A stretch of 64,000 bases of DNA from Microbacterium paraoxydans (GTDB lineage: Bacteria > Actinomycetota > Actinomycetes > Actinomycetales > Microbacteriaceae), in contig NZ_CP064873.1 in the NCBI RefSeq assembly GCF_019056515.1, positions 434,001 to 498,000 of the forward strand, read 5' to 3'. Under the pieces are notes generated by a model. It saw nothing but the letters and a program-made list of their open reading frames with translations, did no database searches and was not told the DNA's origin. This document shows, in pieces, positions 49,001 through 63,534 of the stretch. Each line of letters begins with the position of its first letter. Position 1 is the stretch's first letter. The translations under genes were made by a program, and so were the position numbers.

Positions 49001-49267
49001 GCCGCGGTCCGCGGGGAGAACACGAGCTACGAGCTGAGCTGGACCGGTCTGACCGCCGGAACCCGCTACCTCGGACTCGTCCAGTACGGCGACTCGGCCG
49101 TGCGCACGGTGGTGACGGTCACGACGCCCGCGGATGCCGCGCCGACGCCGACTCCCGCGCCGAAGCCGTCGCCGACTCCCGAGCCGACGCCGACGCCGGA
49201 TCCGACCACGACCCCGGAGCCGACTCCGGAGCCGACCGCGCCTCCGGAGACCGACGCCCCCGGGTGA
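46082..49267 (+). CDS. Secreted S8 family subtilisin-like protease
   Basis: The 1061-residue preproenzyme has a signal peptide (AAATTLATLFIASTATAGHAA), an I9 inhibitor propeptide (HYIVIMKADPLASYEG... LNGFSADLSGEQV) and a catalytic domain. The triad is Asp (VVGVIDTGIAPEHP, about 186), His (DGDGHGSHTAST, about 282) and Ser (LSGTSMASPHIAG, about 613). A PA domain is inserted between His and Ser (VCDRGGNARAEKS), and Fn3-like domains follow. The C-terminus is a Pro/Thr/Glu tail (PTPTPEPTP-type) of the sort that usually precedes a cell-wall anchor, but no LPxTG or hydrophobic helix follows, so the enzyme should be released. AGGAG lies six bases before the ATG. Confidence 0.93.
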   Translation: MGRTPLRIAAATTLATLFIASTATAGHAATGEVTHPVPVAGTPGHYIVIMKADPLASYEGDVKGLKATKPDEGEQLETQSQDAQRYVKHLESEQSSLINDVGVTPDTTYQVVLNGFSADLSGEQVDQLRASKDVLGVYPDEIRHPDAQTSTDYLGLGDDRKGRGGVWQQTGGVKKAGEGVVVGVIDTGIAPEHPSFEGKKLKQQKKQNSRHKGTDPYTDGTYVYFDKSDGGQFRGAMVDGQDWDERDYSTKLIGGQYFFAGAQAAGFDFQYDYLSPRDGDGHGSHTASTAAGNFGVDAEVEGVDFGTVSGVAPGAKVAAYKACYVGPDTTVTTDDICALSDLVAAIDQAVADGVDVINYSIGGGAASTVMAPEDLAFLNAAAAGVFVATSAGNDGPDPVTADHASPWYTTVAASTIPTWEGTVQFDGFEQAGASVTVPFGDSVSGPSIAAVDAAAPGAVDAQLCLPGTLDPAKVSGHIVVCDRGGNARAEKSQVVKDAGGIGMVLVNVPGGADSLDNDFHAVPTVHLNAAHRAAVLAYVQGGVDRPITLVGENTTGVTTPTPQIAGFSSRGPVLADGTDVLKPDIAAPGVAILAATHNAPGEDPTFGILSGTSMASPHIAGLGALYLGEHPRATPGEIRSALMTTASDTVLPDGSKNTNPFEQGAGQVDATRFLNPGLLYLNGFKDWAAFLDGKGLSDFPGIDPIDGSDLNQASISIGSLASAQTVTRSVTSTEKGVFTAKASVPGVNVTVTPSQLSFDKPGQTKTFTVTFDSTTAPVEQWATGSLTWTSKKNTVRSPIAVFPVTADAPAEITGSGVDGSTTVDITPGLDGDLALGVSGLTPFQLLSDPDNPVEGHSGNENSGDANKDVSWIVDVPEGATLSRFDLDSSDDEGSDLDLTVYRVVSPDDLRYYERWQSATGSADEQVTIPAPTAGTYLVVANVYATTGPMTWDMTHASVLPDGEGSFTATPNPIAAVRGENTSYELSWTGLTAGTRYLGLVQYGDSAVRTVVTVTTPADAAPTPTPAPKPSPTPEPTPTPDPTTTPEPTPEPTAPPETDAPG

Positions 49268-53965: not shown

Positions 53966-54336
53966 CCGAGGCGCCGAAGCGGGTGCGGGTCACCGCGGAC
54001 ACCCCGCCGCGCCGCTCCGCCGCCGCCACGCGGGGGATCGCGCTGCCCGGCGCACCGGTCGCGGAGGCCGATGCCGTCTACGCCCGTGCCCTGATGCGCA
54101 GCCAGCTCCGGCTCGCGCTGGGCACCGTCGCCGGCTTCGTGGTGGTCGTCGTCGCCCTGGCGCTCGGGATCGCGCTCATCCCCGAGGTCGACGCCGTCGT
54201 CCTCGGCGGGCTGCCGCTGTCGTGGCTGCTCCAGGCCTTCGCGTTCTACCCGGTGATCCTCGTGTTCGCGGTGCTGTACGTGCGCACGGCGGTCCGCAAC
54301 GAGCGGCGGTACCGCGCCCTGCGGGACCGCGAGTGA
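53962..54336 (+). CDS. Small membrane protein, DUF485-like partner of the symporter
   Basis: The 124-residue protein has a Pro/Arg-rich cytoplasmic N-terminus and two strong membrane helices (LALGTVAGFVVVVVALALGIALI and the one around PLSWLLQAFAFYPVILVFAVLYV). This is the layout of the small DUF485/YjcH-type proteins that accompany ActP-like acetate symporters. It overlaps the response-regulator stop (ATGA) and is itself overlapped by the symporter start (GTGA), so all three are translationally coupled. Similarity to DUF485 proper is weak. Confidence 0.75.
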   Translation: MTEAPKRVRVTADTPPRRSAAATRGIALPGAPVAEADAVYARALMRSQLRLALGTVAGFVVVVVALALGIALIPEVDAVVLGGLPLSWLLQAFAFYPVILVFAVLYVRTAVRNERRYRALRDRE

Positions 54337-55790
54337 ACGCCGTGCTCGACCTCGTCGGGGTCGCCCTGGTCGTGATCGCCACCCTCCTCATCGGCGTGTA
54401 CGGGCTGCGCGTGTCGCGCACGACGAGCGACTTCTTCGTGGCGTCGCGGACGGTGCGCCCGGTCTGGAACGCCTCGGCCATCAGCGGCGAGTACCTCTCC
54501 GCGGGCACCTTCCTCGGCCTCTCCGGGCTCGTGCTGCTGGACGGCGCCCGCGGCTTCTGGTTCCCCATCGGGTACGCCGCGGGGTACCTGCTCGTGCTCG
54601 TGTTCGTGGCCGCGCCCCTGCGCCGGAGCGGGGCGTACACGATCCCCGACTTCGTCGAGGCCCGGCTCGACTCGACCGCCGCGCGCCGTGTCACCAGCCT
54701 CGCGGTGCTCATCATCGGCTGGCTCTACGTCGTGCCGCAGCTGCACGGCGCGGGCATCACGCTCGTCGTGGTCGCCGGGCTGCCGGAGTGGGTCGGCGCC
54801 GTGACGATCGCGGTGCTCGTGGCGGCGGCGGTCGCCGCGGGCGGCATGCGCGCGATCACCTTCGTGCAGGCGTTTCAGTACTGGCTCAAGCTCACCGCGC
54901 TCCTCGTGCCGGTGGTGTGCATCGCGTTCGCCCTGAGCGGCGGCCCGCACGACTTCGATCCCGCGCTCATCTTCCCCGCCGAGGCCGGGCCGTCCGGCTT
55001 CGACGCCTACGAGACCGCGTCGCTGCTGCTCGCGCTGCTCCTCGGCACGATGGGGCTGCCGCACGTCCTGGTGCGGTTCTACACGAGCCCGACCGGAGCC
55101 TCCGCGCGGCGGACCACCGTGATCGTCATCGCCATGGTGAGCGCGTTCTACGCCGTGTCGAGCGCGATGGGGCTCCTGGCGCGGATCGCCGCCCCCGACC
55201 TCGCACGGCCGGGGGTCGCCGACACCGTGGTGCTGCAGCTCCCGTCGCGGGTGTTCCCCGGGCCCGCGGGTGAGCTGCTGACGGCCCTCATCGTCGCCGG
55301 GGCCTTCGCCGCGTTCCTGGCGACCTCGGCCGGACTCGTGGTCTCGCTCGCGGGGGTCATCAGCCAGGACGTCTTCTCCGGCTCCGTGCGCTCCTTCCGG
55401 TTGTCCGCAGTGCTGTGTGCGCTCGTGCCGCTGGGGGTCGCGCTCCTCACGGTTCCCGCGGGGCTCGTGTCGAGCGTGGGGGTGGTGTTCGTCGTGGCGG
55501 CGTCGACGCTCTCGCCCGTGGTGCTGCTGGGCGTGTGGTGGCGGGGCCTCACCGCGCGCGGGGCGGTCGCGGGCATGGTGTGCGGCGGCGTCGCGACCGG
55601 ACTCGCCCTGCTCGTGCACGCCGCGGTGGACGGGGTCGGCGTCGCGGCGCCCTACCTCGCGCAGCCCGCCGCCTGGACGATACCGCTGGCGACCGGGGTC
55701 ACCGTTGCCGTGTCGCTGCTCGACCCTCGTGCGCCCTCGTCCCGCACGGACCGCTTCCTCGCCCGCGTGCACACCCCCGACCGCGCCTGA
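54333..55790 (+). CDS. Sodium:solute symporter, ActP/MctC-like (monocarboxylate uptake)
   Basis: The 485-residue protein has about 13 membrane helices and the SSS-family signatures: SDFFVASRTVRPVWNASAISGEYLSAGTFLGLSG at helix 1-2, GYLLVLVFVAAPLRRSGAYTIPDFVEAR, and the GTMGLPHVLVRFYT core of ActP-like acetate permeases. Together with DUF485 and CstA it suggests a locus for acetate/pyruvate uptake controlled by the LytS/LytTR pair. The GTG overlaps the preceding stop. The 476 bases that follow are the repeat region described next. Confidence 0.9.
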   Translation: MNAVLDLVGVALVVIATLLIGVYGLRVSRTTSDFFVASRTVRPVWNASAISGEYLSAGTFLGLSGLVLLDGARGFWFPIGYAAGYLLVLVFVAAPLRRSGAYTIPDFVEARLDSTAARRVTSLAVLIIGWLYVVPQLHGAGITLVVVAGLPEWVGAVTIAVLVAAAVAAGGMRAITFVQAFQYWLKLTALLVPVVCIAFALSGGPHDFDPALIFPAEAGPSGFDAYETASLLLALLLGTMGLPHVLVRFYTSPTGASARRTTVIVIAMVSAFYAVSSAMGLLARIAAPDLARPGVADTVVLQLPSRVFPGPAGELLTALIVAGAFAAFLATSAGLVVSLAGVISQDVFSGSVRSFRLSAVLCALVPLGVALLTVPAGLVSSVGVVFVVAASTLSPVVLLGVWWRGLTARGAVAGMVCGGVATGLALLVHAAVDGVGVAAPYLAQPAAWTIPLATGVTVAVSLLDPRAPSSRTDRFLARVHTPDRA

Positions 55791-55843
55791 GCCTGCTTCT
55801 GCTTCCCGGACTCTGTCTCCTGGAACAGGCGTTCGCGCGGGTT

Positions 55844-56263
55844 CAGGCAGGTGAAAGCCCATCGAGCCTGAGCCGGCGCGAGTGCCTGAAGAGCGGGAAG
55901 GGTAGGTGTGGTCGGGCCACAGGACTCCGGCGCGGCGGCAGGCACTAGCGCGAGAACAGGCAGGGAGCACCAGGAGTGCCTGAACTGGTGTGGGTGCCTG
56001 AACTGGCGCGTCAGCGAGGTTGCGCGCGAGGGCAGGCAGTGGCGTGAGAACAGGCAGGGAGGATCAGGAGTGCCTGAACTGGCGTGGGTGCCTGAACTGG
56101 CGTGGGTGACTGTTCGGACGCGTCAGCGGTATTGCGCGCGAGGGCAGGCAGTGACGTGAGAACAGGCATGGAGGGTGGCGAGTGCCTGAATCAGCGGGAG
56201 TGCCTGAATCGGCGGGAGTGCCTGTGCGGGAATGCCTGAATCGGCGGGAGTGCCTGTGCGGGA
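55844..56263 (+). repeat. Hierarchical 94-bp / 18-bp repeat with inverted CAGGCA-TGCCTG boxes
   Basis: CAGGCA occurs at 55844, 55939, 55957, 56033, 56051, 56145 and 56163. TGCCTG occurs at 55883, 55977, 55995, 56071, 56089, 56183, 56201, 56219, 56233 and 56251. Within a unit the boxes come as two CAGGCA 18 bp apart then two TGCCTG 18 bp apart. Units repeat every 94 bp (55939 to 56033), then 112 bp (94+18). The last unit carries a 32-bp duplication (56200-56231, 56232-56263). Reading frames are not kept, so it is non-coding. Facing CAGGCA and TGCCTG pairs can form stems. It lies between convergent genes. Confidence 0.85.
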
Positions 56264-56266
56264 GGG

Positions 56267-57184
56267 TCAGAGGGTGCGGCTGCGCGGCATCAGGCGCACC
56301 GGGGGAAGCGGCGGCGCGGGGATGCGCTGGTCGTGCCCCTCGACGACGCCGAACCGGGGGGATGCGGCCTCCCAGTCCTCTCGGGCGGCGGCGATCTCGT
56401 CGTGGGAGCGCCCGGCGAAGTTCCACCACATGACGATCTCGTCCTCGAACGGCTCACCCCCGAGGAGGAACAGCAAGCCGCCCTCACTGCTGGTCACCTC
56501 GACGCTGTCGCGGGAATCGCCGAGGTAGAGCATGTCGTTGCGGGTCATCGCGTGCTCGGGGACGGCGGCGTCGCCCTCGACGAGGAGCAGCGCATGCTCC
56601 CACTCCGGCCGCAGCGGCAGGCGCACCGTGGTTCCGGCGGGCACGACGATCTCCGCCCCGACGATCGGCGTGTGCACGGTCGCCGGCGAGCGCACGCCCG
56701 CGAACTCGCCGAGCACGACCGTGGCCGGGGCGTCCGATCCGGTCGCGGCCGGAAGGGTCGTCGTCGGCAGGTCGGTGTGCCGCTCGAAGCCGCCGTCCCC
56801 GTGGCGCGCGGACTCCGGGAGCACGACCCAGAACTGCAGCGCATCGAGCGGAACGGGCTCGTCGCCGATGGAGTACTCCGAGTGCGAGATGCCGTTGCCC
56901 GCCGTCATGAGGTTGAGCTGTCCGCGCCGGAGGTCGGCATCGCTGCCCAGCGAATCGCGGTGCCGGATCTCGCCGACCAGCGGCCAGGTCACCGTCTGCA
57001 GACCGATGTGCGGATGCGGCTCGACGCGCATCCGGGTCTCGGCCGGGCCGAACCTGTCGAGGAAGCACCATGCGCCGATGGTGGGGAGGTTGCGATGCGG
57101 CAGCACCCGCAGCACCTCCATGCCGCGCACACCGCCGAGCGGCACCGCCCGGGGTTCGAGGACGAGGCGGCGCTGCCCGATCAT
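56267..57184 (-). CDS. Pirin family protein
   Basis: The 305-residue bicupin has the pirin signature HPHIGLQTVTWPLVGEIRHRDSLG (metal-binding His pair) and MTAGNGISHSEYS, then a C-terminal cupin (FLLGGEPFEDEIVMWWNFAGRSHDEI). Bacterial pirins such as YhhW have quercetinase activity, but most have no known role. Its start overlaps the upstream acetyltransferase stop by four bases (ATGA), so the two are coupled. The 3' end abuts the repeat region. Confidence 0.92.
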   Translation of the reverse strand: MIGQRRLVLEPRAVPLGGVRGMEVLRVLPHRNLPTIGAWCFLDRFGPAETRMRVEPHPHIGLQTVTWPLVGEIRHRDSLGSDADLRRGQLNLMTAGNGISHSEYSIGDEPVPLDALQFWVVLPESARHGDGGFERHTDLPTTTLPAATGSDAPATVVLGEFAGVRSPATVHTPIVGAEIVVPAGTTVRLPLRPEWEHALLLVEGDAAVPEHAMTRNDMLYLGDSRDSVEVTSSEGGLLFLLGGEPFEDEIVMWWNFAGRSHDEIAAAREDWEAASPRFGVVEGHDQRIPAPPLPPVRLMPRSRTL

Positions 57185-63280: not shown

Positions 63281-63534
63281 CCCCGCGTTGGTCTCGGAGG
63301 GCACCGTCTGCCGGAGGACCTCGGTCTGGTCTCCGCGCTCGGTGTGGGATGGGAAAGGTGCCGCGGATCTGCGTCGAAGGGCCCTTTTCGATCCCCCCTC
63401 GGAGGTGTGTGTCCTGGCGGGATGGAAAACGGGCCTGGGAGGCGGGGGGGAGGGGCGGAAGTGAACTCGGACGAGGGACGCGGGACGAGGGACGGGGGCG
63501 CGGGACCGGGGACGGGGGTGTCGGTGGGGGTGGA

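Follow-up and report, generated by a model that had tools for sequence, protein, structure and literature searches.

In a 64,000-nucleotide stretch of the Microbacterium paraoxydans chromosome (assembly GCF_019056515.1, contig NZ_CP064873.1, positions 434,001 to 498,000), hereafter the window, the 476 bp that separate the stop codon of a sodium:solute symporter gene from that of a convergent pirin gene are taken up by a tandem array at positions 55826-56263. This array is the local expansion of a dispersed, non-coding palindrome with four boxes, and we think it probable that the palindrome is the cognate site of a resident AbiEi-like/Vsr-EDxHD-like protein, which probably spreads it.

The element has the form CAGGC-N13-CAGGC-N16/17-GCCTG-N13-GCCTG, that is, two inverted 23-bp arms, each made of box-N13-box (an 18-bp step), with a spacer of 16-17 bp between them. 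The first-pass annotation, made from the letters of the window, had proposed a search for similar units in this genome and its relatives, and that search yields 41 copies at 28 sites here and a genus-wide family. The own-genome elements were found with a covariance model in which only the boxes are paired, built from 28 of them (13 lay outside the training set) and four elements of relatives; all score at least 36 bits on the better strand, and the next match scores 17 bits. None of 21 sites inspected against gene calls (19 in this genome and two in the related genome G029) lies wholly inside a called gene, making the element palindromic, repetitive and extragenic, as is required of repetitive extragenic palindromes (REPs). 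A second gene calling over wider stretches placed three elements (L090, L094 and L119) inside called frames. At 19 of the 21 sites, the called gene boundary closest by is a 3' end, the exceptions being L002 and L036, as judged with a crude gene finder that let sites L009, L014 and L036 overlap a called gene end. At L002 a tRNA adjoins the element by eye only; no tRNA search was run. Among hits with two mismatches, a different own-genome repeat of the GCCTGTCGAAGGG type also surfaced, in tandem with a 24- or 47-bp period (G000:C1:1014407-1014476, 1792988-1793010 and 1977701-1977771).

In M. paraoxydans and in four related genomes (G029, G005, G138 and G139), a gene of about 280-340 codons is bracketed by elements and has phosphofructokinase and prolyl oligopeptidase genes as its neighbours; it lies outside the window. 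Its product is a predicted nuclease with an AbiEi-like N-terminal part and a C-terminal part resembling Vsr and EDxHD homing endonucleases. The M. paraoxydans protein scores above the DUF559 cut-off and just below that of REase_MTES_1575, and 48/48 and 43/48 aligned homologues match these two families, respectively, at E 0.01 or better. Database names of the homologues include DUF559, 'very-short-patch-repair endonuclease' and 'AbiEi antitoxin domain' protein; NCBIfam assigns no family to six of the proteins.

The association with this gene extends well beyond the phosphofructokinase locus. We gathered the 30 best homologues from 119 Microbacterium genomes, 20 others picked from the same list and 30 from a second search, which after removal of six duplicates gave 74 distinct loci. 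A four-box palindrome lies within 450 bp of the homologue in 65 of these, on both sides in 38, and the best step among flanked loci is 18 in 53 and 19 in 12. For the 30 best loci, an element with AGG-form boxes is present in 28; the matches number 60 at step 18, versus 0-1 for any other single step between 12 and 24. When any box letters are allowed, 29 of the 30 have a flanking element at step 18 or 19. Phosphofructokinase adjoins 22 of the 30, and the remaining eight, located elsewhere, are all flanked. Flanking elements at step 18 or 19 were likewise seen for 15 of the 20 other picked homologues, and 26 of the 30 loci of the second search are flanked. Boxes beside the 20 picked homologues include TGCGGC, GTCGG, TCGGA, GGAGG, GAAGGC, TGAGG and GATCCGG.

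Each subfamily of the protein has a box of its own, and box identity goes with the protein, not with the genome. Box likeness tracks protein likeness (Mantel rho 0.31, 0 of 999 permutations) across 59 of the 65 flanked loci, six having been dropped for want of a recovered protein over 100 aa. The likeness value is 3.96 for close proteins in other genomes, versus 3.00 for distant proteins and 2.94 for paralogues in the same genome (17 pairs). GGAGG elements, for example, flank a homologue on either side in G032, G060, G071, G072, G081, G104 and G108. Two of these genomes, G081 and G108, each hold one CAGG-flanked and one GGAGG-flanked gene, and carry 13 CAGG plus 37 GGAGG elements and 20 CAGG plus 6 GGAGG elements, respectively. 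In G099, the homologue at the phosphofructokinase locus (L199, G099:C14:42800-46800) has GATCCGG boxes with a step of 19 bp, and a GTAGG-type gene lies elsewhere (L135); one chromosomal place can thus be held by different nuclease/element types. At another locus (L206, G060:C8:16700-20600), the arms of a TCGGA element are almost perfectly complementary through their linkers, unlike those of the window elements.

Elements of this kind are common across the genus. The covariance model finds matches in 58/119 Microbacterium genomes at E 0.01, and the pattern CAGG-N14-CAGG-N16-20-CCTG-N14-CCTG occurs in 186/366, with up to 50 copies per genome. The reversed control pattern occurs in 8/366 (once in each, as read from the table). 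Some single pattern matches may have arisen by chance; those of G145 and G158 are irregular in appearance. GGAGG elements are found in 35/119 genomes, with up to 48 copies, and their reversed control in 0; the genome-wide box searches covered CAGG and GGAGG. When the whole array was searched by blast in 58 relatives, pieces came back from the own genome and one other only, because box letters and linkers diverge, which is why searches by geometry were needed. At G159:C1:859450-860059, four near-identical four-box elements stand in tandem with a 182-bp period, another local expansion. Presence of the elements also goes with presence of the gene: at least three CAGG elements are found in 32 of the 38 genomes with a close homologue versus 17 of the 81 without one (Fisher 5e-11, uncorrected for descent). 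Two of the six exceptions among genomes with a close homologue, G099 and G140, carry TAGG boxes next to the gene, and such boxes escape the CAGG pattern.

Comparison of orthologous sites provides a filled and an empty state. In G139 and G063, the symporter and pirin genes lie side by side and 1 bp separates their stop codons (TGAGTCA), as opposed to the 476-bp gap here; G029 has 61 bp at this site and no four-box element (gaps are given after subtracting the last codons from the script values). Microbacterium sp. LCT-H2, whose pirin is 99% identical, has 389 bp and three exact units, versus four here. Nine own sites were compared with LCT-H2, of which seven aligned on both flanks; the flanks of L087 aligned to different stretches, and L088 fell outside the stretches compared. 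Elements are present at all seven, one of which is the nuclease locus, with three units versus five here. Because all seven sites are occupied while unit counts differ, the places of the elements are stable over short times and unit numbers change.

From these observations we infer binding, cutting and mobilisation, together with any benefit to the host. The nuclease probably sits on the roughly 62-bp element as a dimer, with one subunit on each arm, and the nuclease domain probably nicks or cuts there. Repair or recombination would then copy the element to new intergenic places, mostly gene 3' ends, and the same process would expand it in tandem, much as cutting has been proposed to lead to copying and expansion for REP-associated tyrosine transposases (RAYTs) and REPINs, although the enzymes are unrelated. 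The first-pass annotation had offered a protein-binding array and a mobile repeat as separate possibilities; both gain support, as two sides of one thing.

Several observations weigh against this interpretation. Nine of the 74 homologue loci lack a recognisable element, including that of the second homologue in the M. paraoxydans genome (L187), and an element was found in 0/21 homologue loci from other families of the order. Seven further loci from the genus or family yielded three with an element. One of them belongs to a different genus of the family, and one of the three is also among the 30 loci of the second search. The co-occurrence statistic ignores descent, and its homologue cut-off (E 1e-78) was chosen after the list had been inspected. 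The 17 element-bearing genomes without a close homologue (e.g. G118 with 15 elements and G100 with nine) also count here; they have possibly lost the nuclease or may hold a more distant cognate. No recent movement is seen relative to LCT-H2 at the seven sites aligned on both flanks. Finally, no target duplication was recognised in the one filled/empty comparison; a miniature inverted-repeat transposable element would be expected to have terminal inverted repeats together with such a duplication, and the element is an inverted repeat.

The main rival is that the elements are operators, because AbiEi proteins are autorepressors: the AbiEi-like part would bind them, repress its own gene and regulate or insulate neighbours, and the nuclease domain would do something else and move no elements. 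Antitoxins of the AbiEi family are described as autorepressing through 23-bp inverted repeats (PMC7319586), and the nuclease gene does have elements near each of its ends. However, the predominance of 3' ends over promoter sides at the sites, and copy numbers in the dozens (up to the 50 noted above), are not what an operator would lead one to expect, and tandem expansion and a wholly empty orthologous site fit mobile DNA better. We therefore consider a purely regulatory role unlikely, though it deserves to be kept in mind.

In a second alternative, incoming DNA is what the nuclease attacks, and the elements act as reference or decoy sites on the chromosome. Related domains occur in defence proteins, the Vsr/REase family was defined from the giant MTES_1575 protein (PMC3710099), and PADLOC gives AbiEi matches and, weakly, homing endonuclease matches for the nuclease. 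On the other hand, the elements show no link to phages in this analysis; the nuclease itself has no match in phage and plasmid collections at E 1e-5, which says little either way. Self-marking for defence thus seems improbable.

The elements might instead be hairpins at gene ends that terminate transcription or stabilise RNA, with no tie to the nuclease. The 3'-end positions would suit this, and the units can fold: single-strand DNA folding of the four array units gives z -5.4, -1.8, -2.7 and -3.0. Yet there is no intrinsic terminator (GC hairpin plus T-run) in window 55700-56400, and Rfam returns for window 55500-56700 two chance-like matches, far below gathering scores. Linkers do not covary between arms in the own genome (245/364 pairs versus 243.9 expected). 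Pooling 76 elements from 13 genomes gives a modest excess (z 3.5), and G150 has fewer pairs than nearly all shuffles; the pool leaves out G086, G091, G098, G138, G145 and G158 and the near-identical tandem copies of G159. Linker covariation this weak or absent is easier to reconcile with boxes read by a protein than with an RNA hairpin under selection, and hairpins would leave the nuclease-subfamily-specific boxes unexplained. The structured RNA suggested in the first-pass annotation thus finds weak support, and we regard a function as hairpins alone as very improbable.

Within the window, the array is built from four such elements, to which no strand is assigned, at 55826-55888 (spacer 17), 55939-56000, 56033-56094 and 56145-56206 (spacer 16 in each). 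A decayed box (TGACTG) lies 18 bp beyond the third. A 32-bp duplication (56194-56263) adds further GCCTG boxes after the fourth, at positions 56220, 56234 and 56252. The repeat had been placed at 55844-56263; it is real, but its first box, at 55826, had been overlooked. Between 55844 and 56263 there are exactly seven CAGGCA and ten TGCCTG hexamers, as originally counted, and these are spaced 95/18/76/18/94/18 and 94/18/76/18/94/18/18/14/18 bp, respectively, in agreement with the 18- and 94-bp spacing first reported. Start-to-start distances of units 2, 3 and 4 are 94 and then 112 (94+18) bp, so that one unit is indeed longer by exactly 18 bp. Tandem Repeats Finder (TRF) recovers the 94-bp and 18-bp periods, as well as the 32-bp repeat in the last unit that had also been described. 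The proposed 94-bp unit is present as a period, but the basic block is the 62-63 bp element, to which 32 bp are added. All seven occurrences of GTGCCTGAA in the window fall inside the array; 100 shuffles gave a mean of 0.24 and a maximum of 2. The symporter gene (54222-55790, forward strand; start uncertain, with 54267-55790 given to Pfam) and the pirin gene (56267-57184, reverse strand) both abut the array with their 3' ends. TRF also reports short GC-rich tandem repeats at 49136-49258 and 63469-63518. The tandem units and the 32-bp duplication could suggest a one-off slippage product, the outcome that the first-pass annotation had named as its own refutation, but with the element dispersed through the genome and the genus we give that origin virtually no credence; slippage may account for unit number only.

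Among known systems, the elements and their gene work most like REPtrons, the REP/REPIN-RAYT systems (PMC3116915, PMC3733652). As described there, these comprise short extragenic palindromes in many copies, mostly at gene 3' ends and with tandem clusters; each element type has a single enzyme gene, flanked by elements of that type, and several types per genome are possible. We have not filed the elements as REPs or REPINs, because the defining enzyme differs: the bracketed gene encodes an AbiEi-like plus Vsr/EDxHD-like fold rather than an HUH tyrosine transposase (no RAYT search elsewhere in the genome was made). In addition, the element here consists of two direct-repeat arms whose four boxes keep a constant step of 18/19 bp, and the own box, CAGGC, has no GTAG (or CGTC) end tag, GTAGG and GGAGG boxes being found in other subfamilies.

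The protein, too, has partial counterparts. It shares an EDxHD/Vsr-like catalytic domain with the homing endonuclease I-Bth0305I (PDB 3r3p), but as that enzyme is described (PMC3943268), ours differs in its N-terminal part, in being free-standing between bacterial genes rather than in a phage intron, and in having many candidate target copies in one genome, at which cleavage would occur. Unlike the AbiEi antitoxins of type IV toxin-antitoxin systems (PDB 6y8q; PMC7319586), the AbiEi-like part is fused to a nuclease domain and its putative sites are dispersed at gene ends; at the own locus, the neighbours are phosphofructokinase and prolyl oligopeptidase genes and no AbiEii (DUF1814) toxin. Homologues match both the DUF559 and REase_MTES_1575 families, which include VsrA of Caulobacter (PMC12907096). 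In openly licensed literature, we found neither a description of the elements nor a link of these families to dispersed palindromes, which is weak evidence of absence.

These data suggest that small mobile DNA repeats are paired with a likely DNA-cutting enzyme in a way not recognised before. We put at about even the prospect that the pairing represents a new, minimal class of mobile DNA in Actinobacteria, in which homing-type nucleases with AbiEi-like and Vsr/EDxHD parts act in trans to copy four-box palindromes between genes, each subfamily with its own palindrome population; such a class would be an independent counterpart of RAYT-REPIN and would account for the large 'DUF559' family in Microbacterium. 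If so, a common nuclease family known in databases by name only would gain a concrete DNA target, and its many natural enzyme/box pairs could be used to read out DNA recognition. It would also be a second enzyme solution to the spreading of short palindromes, and the idea that an enzyme other than a tyrosine transposase serves palindrome families, left open for CGTC repeats (PMC3733652), would become testable.
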